In this document: positions 4,539 to 51,280 of the stretch, piece by piece
Numbering within the stretch: the stretch's first letter is position 1
Layout of the letters: each line of letters begins with the position of its first letter
Assembly (NCBI GenBank): GCA_903926385.1
Contig: CAIYIS010000059.1
Coordinates: 124,001-188,000 of the forward strand
Origin: an uncultured Bacteroidota bacterium
Lineage (GTDB): Bacteria; Bacteroidota; Bacteroidia; 2-12-FULL-35-15
Direction: 5' to 3'
DNA: 64,000 nt
Notes under the pieces: model-generated
What the model was told of the DNA's origin: nothing
Database searches by the model: none
The model's input: the letters and a program-made list of their open reading frames with translations, nothing else
Program-made: the position numbers and the translations under genes

Positions 4539-5984
4539 TTGGATTATAATCATCTTATTAAAACATTTCTTATCTAAATCTTCCAACTGAAGAAAGTAGA
4601 TTCCTCTCGTCCAATCCTGCCCAATTAAATCAAAACTCCATTCACCGGAATTAGCTTGAATAGGCTGATTTAATTTTTCATTCATAATTTCTCTTCCTAA
4701 AACGTCTTTTATTTTAATGGAATTAAATTTCCTGTTTCCTTTTACTGAAACAGTAGTTTCGGAAATAAAAGGGTTGGGATAAACAGTGATAAGCAATTCA
4801 TTCAAATTATTTTCATCAATACCCAACGGAGAACACCAATTAATAATTTGAACAGGAATCATTCTGCAATGACAACCAAACAAAACAACTGTACCATCCC
4901 CAATACCATGTTCATTGTTTCCCCAAGCTTGCACAGAGAAATTATTTTTCAAGGCTATGGAATGAGAAAAACCCGCATTTATTTCAGAAATCCCTGAAAT
5001 ATTTTGCACTGAGACAGGATAATTTTTATCCAGAAGTGAATTGTCACCTAATTGACTGAAGTCGTTATTCCCCCATGAACACATCGTAGAATCATTTTTT
5101 AGTGCAAGCGAATGATTGAATCCTGCAGAAATGGACATAATATTCACAAGGCCATTTAACTTTACAGGAAAGTATTTATCCGTAAGAGAACTGTCCCCCA
5201 ATTGTCCATTACTATTTCCTCCCCACACATAAATGGTTCCATCGCTTTTTAATGCTATTGAATGTGTGTTACCTGCTGAAATTGCAACGATGCCTGATAA
5301 TGCCCTTATTTGGACAGGTATACTACTATCTAATGTTGTACTGTCACCAAGCTGCCCATTATTGTTGCGCCCCCAAGCCCAAACTGTGCTATCGCTGCGA
5401 AGAGCAAGTGAATGAAAACCTCCACCGGCAATAGCAATTATATGAGTTAAATTACTAACTGGCACTGCCACAGGATTGCAATTGCATGCAACAAGATTAG
5501 TTGTACCATTTCCAAGTTGCCCGTATTGATTGTATCCCCAATCCCAAACTGTACTGTCACTTTTTAATGCAAGGCAATGATTTTGTCCGCTTGCAATAGC
5601 CTTCACATTATTAAGGTTAAAAACTTGCACGGGGACTGAACTGTTAATATAATAACCCGTTCCCAATTGGCCATTAAAATTATTTCCCCAAGACCATACG
5701 GTACCATTGCTTTTGAGAGCCAATGCATGCCATTCTCCAGCATCCACAGCACTTATCCCACTTAGCCCAGGAATCTGTTCAGGAGCATGTCTATCAAAAG
5801 TGTCAGCTAATCCTAGTTGACCATAATAATTATATCCCCATGATTTCACAGTACTGTCGAGACATATAGACAATGTGAAATTTGAGCCGGCTGCTATTGT
5901 TTGAGAAAATGCAGAATGGCTATATAAAGAAAAAAGTAGAAACAGAGTAATAAAGTGTGAAATCCGTATTATTTTCATAAACAT
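4536..5984 (-). CDS. Secreted RCC1-repeat protein with T9SS type A sorting domain
   Basis: A 482-residue secreted protein. Residues 1-28 form a signal peptide ending in SAFSQ. Seven RCC1-type blades follow, each with a signature such as VWSWGNNFNGQLG (about every 50 residues up to residue 380), so a complete seven-bladed propeller is expected. The last 80 residues are a type A T9SS sorting domain (VYPNPFISETTV, VLGREI, RGIYFLQLED). Partner and function are unknown; the propeller suggests binding, not catalysis. A perfect -7 box lies only 7 bases upstream, so either the mRNA is leaderless or translation begins at Met3 (5978). It converges on gdhA across a shared terminator. Confidence 0.88.
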   Translation of the reverse strand: MFMKIIRISHFITLFLLFSLYSHSAFSQTIAAGSNFTLSICLDSTVKSWGYNYYGQLGLADTFDRHAPEQIPGLSGISAVDAGEWHALALKSNGTVWSWGNNFNGQLGTGYYINSSVPVQVFNLNNVKAIASGQNHCLALKSDSTVWDWGYNQYGQLGNGTTNLVACNCNPVAVPVSNLTHIIAIAGGGFHSLALRSDSTVWAWGRNNNGQLGDSTTLDSSIPVQIRALSGIVAISAGNTHSIALKSDGTIYVWGGNSNGQLGDSSLTDKYFPVKLNGLVNIMSISAGFNHSLALKNDSTMCSWGNNDFSQLGDNSLLDKNYPVSVQNISGISEINAGFSHSIALKNNFSVQAWGNNEHGIGDGTVVLFGCHCRMIPVQIINWCSPLGIDENNLNELLITVYPNPFISETTVSVKGNRKFNSIKIKDVLGREIMNEKLNQPIQANSGEWSFDLIGQDWTRGIYFLQLEDLDKKCFNKMIIIQ

Positions 5985-5991
5985 TTTTTTA

Positions 5992-5999
5992 CAAATGTA
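5992..5999 (-). promoter_or_regulatory. -7 box for the RCC1 gene
   Basis: TACATTTG on the minus strand, a perfect TAnnTTTG. Its closeness to the first ATG (5984) implies an extremely short or absent leader, and favours Met3 at 5978 as a possible start. Confidence 0.6.
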
Positions 6000-6175
6000 G
6001 AGTAAATTAAAGTTTTAAAAAAATTCAAAATGAGTAGAATTTAAAATTTTACTACTTCACAATCTTCGTCAGTAGACTTGCTTTAAAAATCACGAGTCAT
6101 CAAGTAAAACAATTATTCCTTAACTCTAATCCAATCAATTACGAATGACAACATTTATCGTATAAAATTATAGTT

Positions 6176-7064: not shown

Positions 7065-9881
7065 GTGGTCAACCCAATAAAAATTATTTTCCTTTTTCTA
7101 ATTGCAGCTTCATTGAATGCCTCTGCACAATGCGGTACTGTTATTTCATCATTTCCATATTCAGAAGGTTTTGAAACTTCGGCTGCATGGACAACCGGAG
7201 GTGCAAACAATGACTGGGCATGGGGAACTCCTGCACATCCCACTGTAAATTCTGCCGGTGGTGGTGTTAAATGCTGGATGGCAGGAGGGCTAACCGGCTC
7301 ATTTTACAACACCTCCGAACTTGCTTGGATAATGAGCCCATGTTTTGATTTTACTTCACTAAACTACCCTTGGATTTCCTTCAAAATATTTTGGGAATGT
7401 GAATATCATTATGACGGACTTGTGCTGCAATATACATTGAACGGAGGAACATCGTGGACCAATGTTGGGGCTTATGGAGATGCGGTAGATTGTTTAAATG
7501 ATAACTGGTACGATTATGCAAACATTCAATGGCTACTAACAAGTGCTGTACCCAGAAATGGCTGGACAGGGCGCACGGGTGCAACTGCTGGTACATGCCA
7601 AGGAGGAAATGGAAGTTTAGGGTGGTTAACCGCCAAACATTGTATGTCTGCATTGGCAAATCAGCCAAGTGTTCGTTTTCGATTTTTGTTTGGAGCAGGA
7701 ACAACCTGCAATAATTATGACGGAATAGCAGTAGATGATATTTTAATAAGTGACGCACCTGCAAATGTGGCTAACTTTACATATGCCTGTGCCGGTGCAA
7801 ATACAGTTAATTTTACAAACACCTCTTTACTTTGCCCAACAGGTTATCTTTGGGATTTTGGTGATGGAGCGACATCCACTACAACAAACCCAAGTCATAC
7901 CTATGCTGCACCCGGAACCTATAATGTAACGCTGACTTCAAGCGGTCCATGTAATGCACCGGGTTCTGTTACCATCCCAGTCTACATTTTAGGTGCAACC
8001 ACCACATCGACTAATGTTTTGTGCGGAACAGTAAATACAGGTACTGCAACAGTGATTGCTACCGGAAATTCAGGGCCATTCGTTTACAGCTGGTCACCAG
8101 GAGGACAAACCACGGCAACGGCTACTGCTCTAGCGAGTGGCACCTATACAGTAACGGTTTCTGCAACTAATAGTTGTTCTGCTTCGGCCACGGCAGTAGT
8201 AAACTTATCAGCGGCACTAAATGTATCAGCGTCATCAACTGCAGTTAATTGTTTTGGCGGATCAGATGGAACGGTTACTGCTGTTGCATCTAACGGAGTA
8301 ATTCCATATACTTACTTATGGACGGGAGGAGGAAATTCCGCAACTTATGCAAATCTTACTTCAGGTAATTATTCAGTAACAGTGACAGATTTGAATGGAT
8401 GCACAGGTACAGCTTCCACAACGGTATTGCAACCTTTAACAGCACTATCCGTTTCGGCCAATTCAACTCCCGTTAGTTGCTTTGGTGGGAGTAACGGTTC
8501 TGTTATTGCAACTGCCTCAGGCGGCACGGCTCCTTACACTTACATGTGGACCGGAGGACCAGCTTCTGCAGTTTATAGCAATATTGCAGCCGGAACATAC
8601 ACAGCAACCGCAATAGATTTTAATGGATGTACTGCCAATGTAAACGCCACGGTAACTCAACCATCATCCGCTTTGTCAGTCACTGCGACAGCGGTTCCCG
8701 TAGGCTGCTATGGTGGTAGCAACGGTTCTGCCACTGCTGTTGTTTCAGGAGGAAGTTCTCCATATACATATTCCTGGGCAATCGGAGGTGCTTTTACAGC
8801 CACTGCATCTGGACTAACTATGGGGACATACACTGTAACGGTAACAGATATTAATTTGTGTACTACCAATACAACCGCAATTGTTACACAACCTAACGCA
8901 CCAGTGACAGCCAATACAACAACAACTCAAGCGTTATGCGCATTAAGTAATGGAACAGCCACCGTAAATGCCTCGGGCGGCACATCGCCATACACCTATT
9001 CTTGGGCGCCTTCAGGTGGAACAGGGATGATAGCAGCAGCCTTAGGAGTTGGTACGTATACAGTCACCGTAACTGATTTTAATAATTGTACGGTAACCTC
9101 TGCAGCAAATATCACCAGCAATGGAAATATAGTTGCAACCATATTGTCCACTCCAATTAATTGCAATGGGGAATCCAATGGAGCTGCAAGTGCAAGTGCG
9201 ACCGGTGGAGCAAGTCCATATTCATTCTTGTGGAGTACCGGAACTGCCAATGCAACCGTTAGTAATTTGAGTCCGGGTAATTACTGTGTTACTGCTGTTG
9301 ATGCAAACGGATGTAGCGACACAGCTTGTATTGATCTATTTAATCCATCTCCCGTAATAGCTGGTTTTACAAGTAATCCAACAGTTACCGGTATAGATAA
9401 CCCTGATATTTATTTTTATGATAATTCTCAAGGAGCAGCTCTATGGCAATGGGACTTTGGAGACAATTCCGGTTCAACAGGTTGCAACCCCAATCATGAC
9501 TATACAATTCCAGGAACGTATCCGGTGACTCTAATTGTAACTAATAATCATGGTTGCCAGGATTCGGTGACTCATTATATAACTATCAATAGTGAATTTA
9601 CTTTTTATGCTCCTACTGCGTTTTCACCAAATAGTAATGAAATCAATGATATTTTTTTACCTAAAGGAACCGGTTGGGATAATTCTTCCTTTGAAATGTC
9701 TATATACGACAGATGGGGAAATATGGTTTTTAATACCACAGACCCTTTAAGGGGTTGGGATGGTAAATCGAATGGAGGAAATGCAATTTCCCAGATTGAT
9801 GTGTATGTATGGAAAGTGAAACTTTCTGAACTATCCGGAAAGGGGCATCGCTTTATGGGTTCGGTTACAATCTTGAGATAA
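7065..9881 (+). CDS. Secreted SprB-repeat/PKD protein with T9SS type B sorting domain
   Basis: A 938-residue surface protein. The signal peptide ends ASLNASAQ at residue 22. Residues 24-232 form a cysteine-containing MAM-like or jelly-roll region with WIMSPCFDF and DDILISD. A PKD domain (WDFGDGATS, HTYAAPGTYNVTL) lies at about 235-310, six SprB-type repeats at 311-760 (such as CFGGSDGTVTA with SYSW/YTYLW and GTYTVTVTD), a second PKD domain (WDFGDNSG) at 765-845, and a type B (gliding-associated) sorting domain at 848-938 (FSPNSNEIND, YDRWGNMVF, GWDGKSNG). Related proteins act in adhesion or gliding; no enzyme domain is visible. The GTG start is forced by an in-frame TAA at 7053. Confidence 0.9.
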   Translation: MVNPIKIIFLFLIAASLNASAQCGTVISSFPYSEGFETSAAWTTGGANNDWAWGTPAHPTVNSAGGGVKCWMAGGLTGSFYNTSELAWIMSPCFDFTSLNYPWISFKIFWECEYHYDGLVLQYTLNGGTSWTNVGAYGDAVDCLNDNWYDYANIQWLLTSAVPRNGWTGRTGATAGTCQGGNGSLGWLTAKHCMSALANQPSVRFRFLFGAGTTCNNYDGIAVDDILISDAPANVANFTYACAGANTVNFTNTSLLCPTGYLWDFGDGATSTTTNPSHTYAAPGTYNVTLTSSGPCNAPGSVTIPVYILGATTTSTNVLCGTVNTGTATVIATGNSGPFVYSWSPGGQTTATATALASGTYTVTVSATNSCSASATAVVNLSAALNVSASSTAVNCFGGSDGTVTAVASNGVIPYTYLWTGGGNSATYANLTSGNYSVTVTDLNGCTGTASTTVLQPLTALSVSANSTPVSCFGGSNGSVIATASGGTAPYTYMWTGGPASAVYSNIAAGTYTATAIDFNGCTANVNATVTQPSSALSVTATAVPVGCYGGSNGSATAVVSGGSSPYTYSWAIGGAFTATASGLTMGTYTVTVTDINLCTTNTTAIVTQPNAPVTANTTTTQALCALSNGTATVNASGGTSPYTYSWAPSGGTGMIAAALGVGTYTVTVTDFNNCTVTSAANITSNGNIVATILSTPINCNGESNGAASASATGGASPYSFLWSTGTANATVSNLSPGNYCVTAVDANGCSDTACIDLFNPSPVIAGFTSNPTVTGIDNPDIYFYDNSQGAALWQWDFGDNSGSTGCNPNHDYTIPGTYPVTLIVTNNHGCQDSVTHYITINSEFTFYAPTAFSPNSNEINDIFLPKGTGWDNSSFEMSIYDRWGNMVFNTTDPLRGWDGKSNGGNAISQIDVYVWKVKLSELSGKGHRFMGSVTILR
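7990..9345 (+). repeat. Six SprB-type protein repeats
   Basis: Six imperfect repeats of about 75 codons inside the preceding gene. Each opens with a cysteine-glycine block (NCFGG, SCFGG, GCYGG and variants) and ends with TYTVTVTD or a close variant. Confidence 0.8.
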
Positions 9882-20131: not shown

Positions 20132-20530
20132 TTAAAGCCGTTTGGTTTGGGCTTAAGATGGATTCATTCCTACTTAAGCTGGAATGTGCCGGGTTTAGTG
20201 CAGAATGGATTGAGATGGTACAGAATCCATTTCGGGTTAAGCCGGAAGCAATGCGCATTAGGCTGGAAGCAATTCAATGTAATGCGGATGTATTCCTAAG
20301 TAATCTGCACCCAATCGGGATTAAGCCGGGAGGTGCTCTAAAGGCAACCTAATGGGGTTTTAACATATCGAAAGCTTTCCGGCTTAAGCCGGAAAGCTTT
20401 CATTCTTAAGTGGGGAGTGTCCAAATAGGGTTGGCAGGTGTCCGTCTCGAGCAGAATGCTTTTCGGCACAAGCCGGAATCATTCCAGCTTAAGCCGGGGT
20501 GCTTCCAGCTTAATCCGGAAACTAAAATTG
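20132..20530. repeat. Degenerate 21-bp tandem array A
   Basis: About 19 tandem units. The first 13 begin at 20132, 20153, 20174 and so on to 20384, an exact 21-base step; later units start at 20406, 20427, 20448, 20468, 20489 and 20510. The unit core is TTAAGCCGGAA, then three variable bases, then TTCC and a loosely conserved GC. Best copies: 20237, 20321, 20384, 20489. The array is far richer in G+C than its surroundings. It has no supported gene: the only open frame needs a TTG start and reads through the repeats as heptads. Confidence 0.85.
20370..20401. repeat. 32-bp perfect palindrome inside array A
   Basis: The sequence is its own reverse complement over 32 bases, centred on CTTAAG at 20385/20386. 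It arises where two flanking units extend the GGCTTAAGCC core by TTCC/GGAA and GAAAGC/GCTTTC arms. As single strand it could form a 14-16 bp stem with almost no loop, or act as a symmetric binding site. Confidence 0.9.
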
Positions 20531-20752
20531 GCATTTTGAATCTGTTTTAAACTGTTGCATTTCAAGGTTTTTACAAAAACTCCCCTTAATTTAGAACAAT
20601 AGTTTAGGTAAAAAGCAGCAAAAAATCAAATCTCATTGCTCTAAGGGGGATTTTATGCCCCAGAATTGACCTGAAAATTTAATGTGAAAAATTATTTTTT
20701 TAGAGGGTAATAAAATTGATAAAAATCATTTTTTTGTAATTTATTTCAGTAT

Positions 20753-20760
20753 TAATTTTG
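20753..20760 (+). promoter_or_regulatory. -7 box for the 225-residue unknown gene
   Basis: TAATTTTG, a perfect TAnnTTTG, 39 bases before the start codon; a TTG lies 16 bases further upstream, slightly closer than usual. Confidence 0.55.
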
Positions 20761-20799
20761 TAAAAAAATTAATCTCTTTATTAATAAAAACAAAATAAA

Positions 20800-21477
20800 A
20801 TGAAACTGTCACAAATTATTTCGGACTTCAAAACTGAGTTTGATGATGCGGTAGATTACATTAACACAACGGGGATAGCAACTCGTTTATCTATTGGCAC
20901 TGCTACATTATCTAATCTCAGTGGCAAGCGTACCACATTAGATACCACATTTGGTATTTATGCTGACCCTTTAACACATACGTCTGCTTCTGTTATAGCA
21001 GTAAACGCTGCGTATGATGCTGCACTGAAAGCTTACAGAGCTCTTCAAAAATCACTAAAAAACAGTACAGAAATAACACTGCTTCCGGCAGATATTGCTG
21101 CACTACACATTCACATGGATGCTACTCCTCGTAAAAAAGTACCGGCAGTAGATTATGCACCTAACAACACCGTTATTAAACAAACACACGGTGTGTCTCA
21201 AATTTTTGTAAACAACCCTACACCGGGACAAGAAACTAAGAAACGCAAACCGGATGATGTAGCCAAAATTGGCCGTGCTATATGTTATGTAGCTAGCGGC
21301 AGTGCGGCACCACAGCGTAAAGAATACACTAACATGAACGCAATAGGTTCGGTTGTGTTTAATCTTTTGCACGATGCCGACCAAGTAAATTTTGATTGTT
21401 ATTTATTTACCTGGTATATCAGCCCATCAGGCGAAGCCAGCCCTGAAAGTAAACCTTTAAAATTTACTGTTATTTAA
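20800..21477 (+). CDS. Unknown 225-residue protein with possible fibronectin-like C terminus
   Basis: I do not recognise a family. There is no signal peptide or membrane segment. Residues 1-110 are largely helical with Ala/Thr-rich stretches; residues 110-160 are Pro/Thr/Lys-rich; residues 165-225 look beta-rich and end in CYLFTWYISPSGEASPESKP, like the last strands of an Ig- or Fn3-like fold found in small Bacteroidota proteins of unknown function. It is a single-gene unit: promoter at 20753, strong terminator at 21495. It lies directly downstream of array A; whether the two are linked is unknown. Confidence 0.75.
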   Translation: MKLSQIISDFKTEFDDAVDYINTTGIATRLSIGTATLSNLSGKRTTLDTTFGIYADPLTHTSASVIAVNAAYDAALKAYRALQKSLKNSTEITLLPADIAALHIHMDATPRKKVPAVDYAPNNTVIKQTHGVSQIFVNNPTPGQETKKRKPDDVAKIGRAICYVASGSAAPQRKEYTNMNAIGSVVFNLLHDADQVNFDCYLFTWYISPSGEASPESKPLKFTVI

Positions 21478-46858: not shown

Positions 46859-48397
46859 TTAACCAGCCCATCCTTCTCTATCCAAACTACGGTATTGAAT
46901 AGCTTCAGCCAGATGATTGGTTTCTATATTTTCGCTGCCATCTAAATCTGCAATGGTTCTGGCTACTTTCAGAATTCGGTCGTAAGCACGTGCCGAAAGG
47001 CCAAGGCGCTCCATTGCTGTTTTTAAAAGTTCGGTTCCAGATTCGTTTATTTTACAAACCTCTCTCAATTTTTTTGAACTGATTTGTGCGTTGCAATAAA
47101 CTCCCTCTTTGTTGGCATATCGTTTTTCCTGTATTTCCCGAGCTTTTACTACACGCTGACGCACACTCACACTTTTTTCGGAAACACGTTCGGCTGATAA
47201 TTCATTAAACGAAACTGGTGTAACTTCCACATGTATGTCTATTCTGTCGAGCAAAGGCCCTGATATTTTGTTCAAATATTTTTGCACAATGCCGGGGGCA
47301 CATACACAATCTTTTTCGGGGTGGTTATAATATCCGCATGGGCAAGGATTCATCGAAGCCACCAACATAAAGCTTGCAGGATATTCAACCGAAAATTTAG
47401 CTCTCGAAATGGTAACAATGCGGTCTTCTAATGGCTGTCGCATCACTTCCAAAACCGTTCGTTTAAATTCGGGCAACTCGTCCAAAAACAAAACACCATT
47501 ATGAGAAAGCGAAATTTCTCCGGGTTGAGGTACACCCCCGCCTCCGACTAAAGCAACGTCACTAATGGTGTGATGAGGTGAACGAAACGGTCGGGTAGAA
47601 ATCAACCCTACGTTTTTTCCCATTTTTCCGGCCACACTGTGAATCTTGGTTGTTTCGAGGGCTTCGTGAAGATTCATGGGAGGTAAAATGGTAGGCAATC
47701 TTTTTGCAAGCATTGTTTTTCCGGCTCCCGGAGGCCCGATTAAAATAACATTGTGTCCGCCTGCTGCTGCTATTTCTAAAGCTCGTTTAATATTTTCTTG
47801 ACCTTTTACATCCGAAAAATCGAATTCTACTTCATTAATTTTTGAAAAGAATTCTTCACGAGTATTTACAATTGTTTGTTCTAATACCGCTTTCTCATTG
47901 AAGAAGTCAATCACTTCAGTAATGTTTTCCACTCCATACACCTCCAAACCGTTTACAATAGCGGCTTCTCTGGCATTCTGTTTTGGAAGTATAATGCCTT
48001 TAAACTTTTCCTCTCTGGCCTGAATGGCAATGGGCAAAACACCTTTAATGGGTTGCAGTCCGCCATCCAGCGATAGTTCTCCCATAATAATATAATCACC
48101 CACATGGTCGGCTTTAATTTGTTCGGAAGCAGCCAGAATACCCACAGCAATGGTTAAATCGTAAGCCGAACCTTCTTTGCGAATATCGGCAGGAGCCATA
48201 TTAATAACAATGCTTTTGCCCGGCATTTTGTAGTGATTATTTCTCAAGGCAGCATCTATTCTTTTTTCACTTTCCTTTACTGCATTATCGGGTAATCCAA
48301 CGAGAAAAAAATTTACACCGGGAGTAATATTGGTTTCTACCGTTACTGTGGTGGCTGTTATTCCATAAACAGCGCTTCCGTATGTTTTTACTAACAT
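46859..48397 (-). CDS. comM: YifB/ComM-type Mg-chelatase-like AAA+ ATPase
   Basis: 512 residues: an N-terminal Lon-protease-like ChlI domain (1-170), AAA+ core with Walker [15 protein letters not shown] (about 219-232) and Walker B-type [10 protein letters not shown] (near 304), a cysteine cluster ([15 protein letters not shown], about 352-366) and a C-terminal Mg-chelatase helical domain. ComM in other bacteria is a helicase that promotes branch migration during natural transformation; whether this organism is competent is unknown. The promoter lies in a segment that is duplicated 680 bases away. Confidence 0.9.
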
Positions 48398-48407
48398 AAT
48401 TATTCTG

Positions 48408-48542
48408 TTTTTAAAAAGAGAGACTACGAAAGTACAAAATATCTAATAATTGCATCTTTAATTTCAGGGTTTATCGTTTATTTTTTTTAAGTTAATAGGG
48501 ATAAAAAAATTCTACTTCAGTCTCTCAATTTAAATTTAAACA
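48408..48542. repeat. Direct repeat copy 1 of the comM/T9SS gene divergent promoter
   Basis: About 135 bases closely similar to 49091-49229, including an identical stretch around TTTCAGGGTTTATCGTTTA and the GTTAATAG-GATAAAAAA block. Copy 1 lacks the start codon context that copy 2 provides. Confidence 0.8.
48427..48434 (-). promoter_or_regulatory. -7 box for comM
   Basis: TACTTTCG on the minus strand (TAnnTTCG form), 30 bases before the start. It lies within duplicated copy 1; in copy 2 the matching site is altered by one base. Confidence 0.5.
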
Positions 48543-48591
48543 AATTAAAAACCCACAACAGATTAAATTTACAACAGTTATATTTTTCAAG

Positions 48592-48824
48592 ACAACTCCC
48601 CGAATCATTTTTACAACTCCCCCATTCCTTTTTACAACTCCCCCGAAGCTTGTTTTTAACTCCCCCGAACCTTCTTACAACTTCCCCTAACCTTCTTACA
48701 ACTCACCCGACCATTTTTACAACTACCCGAATCGTTTTACCAACTCCCCCGAAGTGTGTTTTTAGTTCCCCCGAACATTTTTACAACTGCCCGAATCATT
48801 CTAACAACTCCCCCGAACATCATT
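48592..48824. repeat. Degenerate 21-bp tandem array B
   Basis: Eleven tandem units, eight of exactly 21 bases and the others 20, 22 and 23. Unit pattern: ACAACTCCCCCGAA, two or three variable bases, then about five T. Unit starts: 48592, 48613, 48634, 48656, 48677, 48698, 48719, 48739, 48762, 48783, 48804. The sequence is strongly pyrimidine-rich on the plus strand. A frame through it has no usable start and merely reads heptads of Thr, Pro and Asn; I do not call a gene. Confidence 0.88.
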
Positions 48825-48871
48825 ATAGTCGAATTAATATATTGTGAAACTTTAAAATAGGTTGGAAAGTA

Positions 48872-48907
48872 AAAATCCGGTTGCGAAAAGTTTCGCAGCC
48901 GGATTTT
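48872..48907. terminator. Long hairpin after array B
   Basis: A 17-bp stem (48872-48888 with 48891-48907, one G-U pair) with a two-base loop, followed on the plus strand by AT-rich sequence but not by a long T run. It could terminate a transcript through the array, or be another palindromic element. Confidence 0.6.
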
Positions 48908-49090
48908 AAAATATATGGTAATGTAAAAAGACTATCTAATAAAAGTAATATATTTACGGAAATGCGGGTTTCGGAGGGTTAGCAGTATGTAAGCGTATTT
49001 TTGAGAACAAGGTAATTTGTTTTTCAAAAACCAAGTAACAAAATTGGGAAATAAAAAGCAAATTGTTTTTTAGGAAATTTTTGGAGCTAT
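48908..49090. other. Remainder of the comM/T9SS intergenic region
   Basis: AT-rich, no gene and no repeat structure that I can see between the hairpin and duplicated copy 2. Confidence 0.5.
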
Positions 49091-49229
49091 TTATAAAAGG
49101 GAGACTAGGAAAGTAAAAAATAGCTGAGAAAGGTGTCTTAATTTTCAGGGTTTATCGTTTATTTTTTTTAAAAGTTAATAGAGATAAAAAATAATACTAC
49201 TTTAGTCGCTCAAATTAAAAACTTAAACA
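49091..49229. repeat. Direct repeat copy 2, leader of the Omp28-like gene
   Basis: Partner of 48408-48542. It ends directly at the ATG at 49232 and holds a possible -7 box (TACTTTAG at 49197-49204, one or two bases off the consensus) for that gene. Confidence 0.8.
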
Positions 49230-49231
49230 GA

Positions 49232-51280
49232 ATGAAAAAAATAATTACACTATCGCTTGCGCTTATTGCTTGCAATGCATTAACCAAGGCACAAACATTT
49301 TCTGAAGATTTCGAAGCCTACACAGTGGGTTCGGCTTTAGGGCCACAATCGCCTAACTGGACAGTATGGAGCGGCACTGCAGGAGAGGGAGGTACAACCG
49401 ACCCATTGGTTGCCAGTACCGACAACCATACTACAGGAGGTTCTAAATCCATTCACTTTAGTTCGACCGCCTCAACAGGTGGACCCAATGATTGTGTATT
49501 ACCATTTGGAGGAACACCACTTACAACAGGACAATTTACCTTCAGTGCATGGTTCAAAATACCTACCGGAAAGGATGCTTACTTTAACTTTCAGGGAGGC
49601 TCACCACCTTACACTGGTACTACAATGTACACATTGGATTTGTGGATGAATAGTGACGGAAGTTTGGTAATTCAGAATTCGGGAACTCCGGTTTTGACCA
49701 CTACTCATCCTTTTGGCTCATGGTTTCAGTTAACTATAGATGCTAACCTTAACACAAACGATTGGAATTTGTTGATTAACGGAACATCGATGGGAACATG
49801 GACCAATGCTATCGACCAAGTAGGAGGCATTGATATTTATCCTGCTGATGCAACTGCAAGCTTTTGGTTAGACGATGTTTCTTACAACATTGTTCCTTAT
49901 ACATTGCCTGCATTGAACGGAGCAGTAACCAATTTAGTTGTTTCGAACGGATTGGTGAGTCAAGTTAGAACACCTAATGTAACTATTAGAAATCTTGGAG
50001 TAGATACCATTACTTCGTTCGATTTGGGTATAGTTGCTAACGGAACACCGTCTAATCAAACTGTATCAGGTGTAAGCATACCATCCTTGGCAACCTACAC
50101 AGTTACGGCATCATCTCCGGTTACGTTAATAAACGGAGTAAATACTTTTTCTACCACCATTAGTAATGTGAATGGTTTGGGAGCAGATGGAGATTTAACT
50201 GATGACAGTAAAACTTTAACTTTAACACCACATGTGGCTGCACCCGGAAAAATGGTAGTGGGTGAAGAAGCAACGGGAACATGGTGCCAATGGTGTCCGA
50301 GAGGAGCTGTATATATGGATATGATGCATAATAAATATGATGGATATTTTGCTGGTATTGCAGTTCACAATGGCGATGTAATGACAAACACTATGTATGA
50401 TGCAGGAATGGGTGGACTTATCCAAGGTTATCCAACTGCTTTGGTTGACCGTTTACCAGGATTAGATCCATCGGCTATGGAAACAGATTTCTTAACCCGT
50501 ATTCAGGTTGCTCCAAAAGAATTTATTGTTAACGGTGCCACTTACAATGCATCCACACATGTACTAAATGTTTCGGTTACCAGCACTATTCAACAAAATA
50601 TTACCGGAAACTACACCATAGCTTGTGTTATTACAGAAGACAGTGTTCATGGTACTGCTTCGGGATACAATCAGGCGAATGCATATTCCGGAGGTGGCTC
50701 GGGAGTTATGGGAGGTTTTGAACTATTAGGAAACCCTGTTCCTGCTGCTCAAATGCACTATAACCATGTGGCACGTATTATTAAACCAAGCTTTACAGGA
50801 CAGTATCAAGCTTTTGGAGCTTCAGCAAACACTGGTCAGGTGTTTACATGGAATTTTATTGACACGCTCAATGCAAGTTGGAATAGCAATAAAATTAACA
50901 TCATCGGAATGGTGATGGATCCAACTGGTAAAATTGATAATGCCGCTACTACTACCATTGCACAGGCAGTTACTAACGGTTATGTTTCGGGAACTTTGGC
51001 TACAGGAATAACTGAAGTAAATCAGGCAGACGCTACCGTAAGTTTATCGCCAAACCCTGCAAACGAGAATTCAAATATCTTCTTAAACCTTGTTACTGAA
51101 TCAACCGTTCAGGTTGCTATTTACAATGTAGCTGGTGAGTTGGTAGCTAATAAAGATTACGGAAGACTTTCAGGAGGTATGATGTTGCCTATTGAATCTT
51201 CTAAATTTGCTGCAGGTATTTATTTTGTTAATGTTACTATTGATGGTAAATCGTCAATGCACAAATTAGTGAAACAATAA
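49232..51280 (+). CDS. Secreted Omp28-related protein with thioredoxin-like motif and T9SS type A sorting domain
   Basis: 682 residues. Signal peptide to residue 21 (CNALTKAQ); a LamG/concanavalin-like domain (22-215, with FSEDFEAYTVG and SFWLDDVSYN); a CARDB-like Ig domain (222-335); an Omp28-related domain (340-580) whose start carries a thioredoxin-like CQWC motif (Cys352/Cys355 in TGTWCQWCPRGA); and a type A sorting domain (about 595-682, VSLSPNPANENSN, AAGIYFVNVTIDGKS). The CxxC could allow redox or metal chemistry outside the cell, which is inference. It is downstream of array B and followed by a strong terminator. Confidence 0.9.
   Translation: MKKIITLSLALIACNALTKAQTFSEDFEAYTVGSALGPQSPNWTVWSGTAGEGGTTDPLVASTDNHTTGGSKSIHFSSTASTGGPNDCVLPFGGTPLTTGQFTFSAWFKIPTGKDAYFNFQGGSPPYTGTTMYTLDLWMNSDGSLVIQNSGTPVLTTTHPFGSWFQLTIDANLNTNDWNLLINGTSMGTWTNAIDQVGGIDIYPADATASFWLDDVSYNIVPYTLPALNGAVTNLVVSNGLVSQVRTPNVTIRNLGVDTITSFDLGIVANGTPSNQTVSGVSIPSLATYTVTASSPVTLINGVNTFSTTISNVNGLGADGDLTDDSKTLTLTPHVAAPGKMVVGEEATGTWCQWCPRGAVYMDMMHNKYDGYFAGIAVHNGDVMTNTMYDAGMGGLIQGYPTALVDRLPGLDPSAMETDFLTRIQVAPKEFIVNGATYNASTHVLNVSVTSTIQQNITGNYTIACVITEDSVHGTASGYNQANAYSGGGSGVMGGFELLGNPVPAAQMHYNHVARIIKPSFTGQYQAFGASANTGQVFTWNFIDTLNASWNSNKINIIGMVMDPTGKIDNAATTTIAQAVTNGYVSGTLATGITEVNQADATVSLSPNPANENSNIFLNLVTESTVQVAIYNVAGELVANKDYGRLSGGMMLPIESSKFAAGIYFVNVTIDGKSSMHKLVKQ

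Follow-up and report, generated by a model that had tools for sequence, protein, structure and literature searches.

A 21-bp tandem array at a comM/T9SS locus as an apparent orphan of a class of gene-linked arrays in Bacteroidota

Array B, a 21-bp tandem array between comM and a T9SS gene, is one array among dozens to hundreds in these genomes, and comparison of its sequence with other loci identifies it as an apparent relocated, orphan copy of an array class that is linked to genes. It lies in the window, by which we mean the whole stretch of 64,000 nucleotides of an uncultured Bacteroidota genome that was analysed. Arrays of this class keep the length of their unit and not its sequence, and stand upstream of families of uncharacterised proteins. 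Tentatively, we propose that the gene-linked members may serve as multivalent binding platforms of fixed pitch, and we discuss this reading along with its rivals.

Array B and its relocation to the comM/T9SS locus

The features of the locus are as follows.

46859-48397, minus strand: comM (YifB/Mg-chelatase-like AAA ATPase; Pfam Mg_chelatase, ChlI and Mg_chelatase_C)
48409-48556, plus strand: left-hand copy of the comM/T9SS promoter region, present in duplicate (direct repeats D2/D3/D5)
48566-49085, minus strand: putative relocated block of array, hairpin and tail (blastn and pairwise alignment)
48592-48824, no strand assigned: array B, 10.5-11 tandem units of period 21 (TRF and unit segmentation)
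48872-48907, no strand assigned: strong hairpin AAAATCCGGTTGCGAAA/TTTCGCAGCCGGATTTT, flanked by T-runs (inverted repeat; RNA fold)
49090-49222, plus strand: right-hand copy of the comM/T9SS promoter region, running into the T9SS gene (direct repeats D2/D3/D5)
49232-51280, plus strand: T9SS substrate, Omp28-like with Por_Secre_tail (Pfam)

A preliminary description had reported a 21-bp tandem array with units of a constant motif, variable bases and a T block in a divergent comM/T9SS setting, and it was right on each count. TRF delimits the array at 48592-48813 with a period of 21 and 10.5 copies, along with higher-order periods of 43 and 106 over 48592-48820; the unit reads (T)ACAACTCCCCCGAA followed by two to four variable bases and the T block; and the identities of both neighbours are confirmed by Pfam (Mg_chelatase/ChlI and Por_Secre_tail). 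Unit segmentation gives a spacing of 21 bp in most units (mean 21.2), and the few units of 20, 22 or 23 bp make the pitch slightly looser than in most other arrays. Array B was the sole stretch of the window to pass an identity scan at lags of 10-60. Four exact instances of the 14-mer ACAACTCCCCCGAA exist in the genome, confined to array B and an array on contig C49, and given this restriction to two arrays, random spacing across the genome is not seen. Self-pairing of the plus strand of the units had been said to be absent, a remark that stands because the RNA of neither strand folds better than its dinucleotide shuffles (z of +0.30 and -0.54). RNA hairpins in array B are rejected on this ground, and so is a known RNA family, as an Rfam search of 48398-49231 returned nothing above the gathering score.

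The block that carries the array has a second copy: 48566-49061 matches G000:C49:29848-30349 on the minus strand with 92% identity by blastn over 0.5 kb, and the right end, near 49085, is inferred from similarity to contigs C78 and C67. The C49 copy lies upstream of a gene for an unknown 238-aa protein and ends about 80 bp before its start codon, and in the sense of that gene the block occupies the minus strand of the window. At array B a gene of the 238-aa-type family is absent, and the block is instead bracketed by the duplicated comM/T9SS promoter region, whose two copies are 83-89% identical. A scan of the comM flank in about 28 related genomes found the array at this locus in none, and at the orthologous locus of G014 comM and the T9SS gene are simply separated by one short promoter region that lacks the block, i.e., an empty site. 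The position of the C49 copy beside the 238-aa gene, taken together with the missing array at comM in relatives, argues that array B is a lineage-specific, gene-less copy. Two further gene-less arrays likewise have gene-linked counterparts: C48:36587 matches an array that precedes a 314-family gene on C30, and C59:209523 one that precedes a 225-family gene on C16. Of 19 arrays in sampled contigs, about 12 are not adjacent to a family gene.

Pairwise alignment of the window and C49 copies revealed that array and tail each differ by about 6% substitutions (15/233 in the array and 15/244 in the tail since the duplication). This equal divergence gives no sign of a sequence constraint on array B relative to its tail and leaves a sequence-specific reader unsupported. 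The earlier suggestion of a repeated recognition site survives in part: it is the best class of explanation for such arrays, but the constant ACAACTCC as the functional element is not supported, since the units of comparable arrays, both in this genome and in its relatives, bear no relation to one another. The conserved features are instead the period, the placement before certain genes and, in two families, a boxA. As an orphan without a partner gene, array B gives no indication of acting on comM or the T9SS gene; although located between two promoter copies, it is most likely a passenger at comM, and no specific role is expected of it in its present place.

The hairpin within the block folds at -20.1 kcal/mol as RNA (z -6.8), and a terminator-like hairpin element recurs beside arrays at C49, C67 and C78 and in relatives. 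We also observe, beside several 238-family arrays, a conserved element of about 200 bp that combines a terminator-like hairpin (ATCCGGTTACGAA..) with a CCTCCGAAAC-type motif and has one A/T-rich end resembling a promoter (L009 ~5870-6060; L019 5184-5232; L020 ~5540-5590; window 48872-49080; also L025 and L026). This element is possibly a small RNA gene; its window copy has no match in Rfam.

Gene-linked arrays of fixed period and free sequence

The array counts for this genome rest on 465 kb, where 22 of the 24 arrays of at least 80 bp have a period of 21 or 42, these being intergenic and made of mostly unrelated units. Over 45 arrays, 1120 substitutions were counted as against 16 off-length units among 305 inner units, which indicates that unit length is held while sequence is free. 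Gene-linked arrays are built of about ten units, the unit being uniform inside an array and mostly unrelated between genes, and longer, higher-order repeats (42, 63 and 84) are frequent. The arrays of G027 and G211 (L241/L242), in regions identical over about 3.2 kb, differ by one 63-bp (3 x 21) block, so that copy number appears to shift by whole units (assembly collapse being possible). One array (L134 2265-2437) displays alternating 10- and 11-bp sub-repeats that together make 21, which hints at the helical repeat of DNA.

These arrays are associated with three families of uncharacterised proteins, of 238, 225 and 314 aa. The three families occur in largely the same 8-10 of the 36 genomes of the genus, often in multiple copies, and a 21n array lies directly upstream of 59 of 75 members and downstream of 0 of 78 over the three families; samples of seven relatives without the linked genes hold practically no such arrays outside genes. 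Paralogues of the 225-aa protein are found in 8 of the 36 genus genomes and, by a class-wide profile search of its superfamily, in 20 of 395 genomes from several taxonomic families, and most of the superfamily loci examined across the class have a 21-bp array upstream. The protein family sets the period of the array. All 46 arrays of the 238 and 225 families have a period of 21, with a lag-21 identity of about 0.7 on average and 0.51 at the lowest, and all 23 arrays of the 314 family are best aligned at a lag of 42 (20 arrays) or 41 (three arrays), their lag-21 identity of 0.15-0.36 being near background. The three arrays with a 41-bp rather than a 42-bp period are L175, L180 and L181.

The proteins of L174 and L183 are 78% identical and their array units are nevertheless different. 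Related units upstream of two 92%-identical proteins (L009 6097-6323 and L019 4892-5136) differ between the two loci in their orientation relative to the gene. Elsewhere, a 21-bp array (L030 9127-9363) has a 235-aa relative of the 225-aa family on one side and a Cro/C1-type HTH gene (9395-9679) on the other. Searches with the linked proteins against Pfam, NCBIfam and PHROG gave nothing above cut-off, the PDB gave no match, and structure predictions have pLDDT values of 38-40. A phage or plasmid origin was considered and rejected, as tblastn found no match in phages for the 238- and 225-aa proteins or in plasmids for the 238-aa protein, and the viral contigs scanned for the 238-aa family contained none.

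The window itself harbors one typical gene-linked arrangement (20150-21477), whose two features are given below.

20150-20530, no strand assigned: array A, a degenerate 21-bp array upstream of the 225-aa gene (lag-21 identity and motif spacing)
20800-21477, plus strand: uncharacterised 225-aa protein from the array-linked superfamily A2 (paralogues; no Pfam, PHROG or NCBIfam hit)

The TTAAGCCGG-type motifs of array A lie at 20174, 20237, 20258, 20321, 20384 and 20489, all spaced by multiples of 21, and its lag-21 identity is 0.45 as compared to 0.17-0.31 at neighbouring lags. It is more decayed than array B, and the two were correctly described as sharing a 21-bp period with distinct motifs.

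The 200 nt upstream of arrays are most enriched in the 8-mer GTTCTTTG, seen 14 times on the gene strand and once on the opposite strand. The exact 9-mer GTTCTTTGA is present upstream of 11 of 74 arrays on the gene strand and of none on the opposite strand (0.07% in shuffles), and with at most one mismatch it is present upstream of 23 of 74, against 3. This 9-mer is shared with the rRNA leaders of related genomes, where it precedes 16S and 23S, and can thus be recognised as an rRNA-type boxA. Among 30 exact boxA sites examined genome-wide, all array-adjacent ones are upstream and in the same orientation. Members of the 314 and 225 families often have the motif, as against one in 17 (at most one mismatch) for the 238 family; around array B the best match has two mismatches, and the hairpin with T-runs adjoins instead. 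The TAnnTTTG promoter element has no clear enrichment upstream of arrays and is depleted between array and start codon (13% versus 45%). The gene-strand boxA upstream of arrays in the 225 and 314 families points to a transcribed, untranslated leader.

A putative binding platform and rival explanations

The best explanation, to which we assign a probability of about 0.45 on the strength of these sequence comparisons, is that the arrays may be multivalent, fixed-pitch binding platforms in the leaders of the linked genes, with selection acting on pitch. According to this proposal, transcription of a 225- or 314-family gene would run through its array, giving a long untranslated leader that is protected by Nus antitermination. 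The array would act in cis as a multivalent platform at fixed pitch, 21 bp corresponding to two turns of B-DNA, and the protein bound to it, either a regulator or the gene's own product, would control the downstream gene. The pitch would be under selection, and the sequence of the unit would co-evolve or drift through unit-by-unit homogenisation. Several observations count against this platform: the 238 family, to which array B belongs, is poor in boxA, about 12 of the 19 arrays in sampled contigs have no family gene beside them, array B and its tail have diverged equally, and three arrays of the 314 type have a period of 41. In an extension of the proposal that falls somewhat short of what we would call probable, Bacteroidota may possess an undescribed two-part system in which unknown proteins each have their own boxA-protected leader array, the period dictated by the family and the sequence private to the gene, with the protein assembling on or being controlled via its array and orphans escaping from this association.

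The main rival is a selfish or neutral satellite, which we consider unlikely on balance while giving it real weight. The genes would have come down together with an ancestral, functionless array of 21 bp (of 42 bp in one lineage), its units drifting and being homogenised by slippage and recombination, its length kept mainly through descent and homogenisation, and blocks like array B being copied elsewhere. Array B and the other orphans, being block copies, agree well with such an origin, as do the equal divergence of array and tail in both copies of the block, the 63-bp (three-unit) difference between two genomes identical over about 3.2 kb, the common higher-order repeats and the existence of a few 41-bp arrays. 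A functionless satellite is, however, difficult to reconcile with arrays that, across several taxonomic families, still precede most members of protein families both old and divergent and never lie downstream, with unit sequences that are wholly replaced at constant length, or with a boxA that is strand-specific.

An operator or iteron array, in which a dimeric DNA-binding regulator would occupy a dyad in every unit, at intervals of two helical turns, appears improbable. Palindromes are indeed enriched in the consensus units overall (combined P 5e-5) and most strongly in the 314 family (P 5e-4), and an XRE/Cro-type HTH gene adjoins one array (L030 9395-9679), but the dyad is missing in array B and several other arrays, the linked proteins are without an HTH, and one specificity per array would be required. 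Universal palindromes in the units were rejected, being present in only a subset of arrays.

Slightly less probable still is an array that acts as RNA, with the boxA leader processed to RNAs of about 21 nt or bound per unit by the encoded protein in a CRISPR-like layout. The unit sequence unique to each gene would suit such an array, as would the gene-strand boxA upstream of arrays in two families, which is also known for CRISPR arrays (PMC7862264). Against it, spacers are absent, no nuclease or RNA-binding domain is recognised in the linked proteins, the RNA of array B is unstructured, and related units at C49 and C78 are opposite in orientation relative to the gene.

Finally, a coding repeat of seven-residue peptides or intrinsically curved DNA is very improbable: 21 equals seven codons and two helical turns, and some arrays are open in one frame, but open frames (56 of 66, with about 51 expected from column-shuffled arrays) are in no clear excess, the units of array B vary from 20 to 23 bp, and predicted curvature does not exceed that of shuffled units (median P 0.46), and both were rejected.

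Relation to known repeat systems

Plasmid iterons and parC centromere arrays consist of direct repeats of about 20-22 bp that recur every two helical turns ahead of their cognate gene. The present arrays are similar in the spacing of their direct repeats upstream of a gene, but they are chromosomal, many per genome and unique in sequence to each gene, and the array neighbours have no Rep, ParR or RHH match. REP/BIME and MITE-type repeats are likewise dispersed, intergenic and copied in blocks, and one of the arrays here is accompanied by a hairpin, but members of the present class share a period and not a sequence. A boxA leader has been described for CRISPR arrays (PMC7862264), which resemble ours in that a repeat array would be transcribed from such a leader with an associated gene adjacent; ours differ in being made of contiguous units without spacers or Cas proteins, in their shorter unit and in a unit that changes from gene to gene. 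No cas genes lie beside array B, whose neighbours by Pfam are comM and the T9SS gene.

Intergenic VNTRs or minisatellites are also tandem and non-coding and shift in copy number by whole units, and a copy-number difference between close genomes, the defining property of a VNTR, is found at a related array (63 bp between G027 and G211). The arrays described here differ from VNTRs in being fixed at 21 or 42 across unrelated units, in lying on one side of defined gene families and, in two families, in the boxA upstream. CRISPR, iteron/parC, REP/MITE and Rfam assignments each fail at least one defining feature and the general VNTR label alone fits. A search of the open literature found no description of 21-bp gene-linked arrays (subscription journals being outside its scope).

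The combination of conserved length, free sequence, linkage to gene families and frequent boxA does not fit CRISPR, iterons, REP or ordinary VNTRs, and the presence of these arrays upstream of unknown families across many Bacteroidota points to a system of gene control or of RNA that has not been described before. If the arrays are platforms, period is predicted to matter and sequence not. The array class would account for a large part of the extended intergenic DNA of these genomes, and it offers a concrete handle on uncharacterised protein families.
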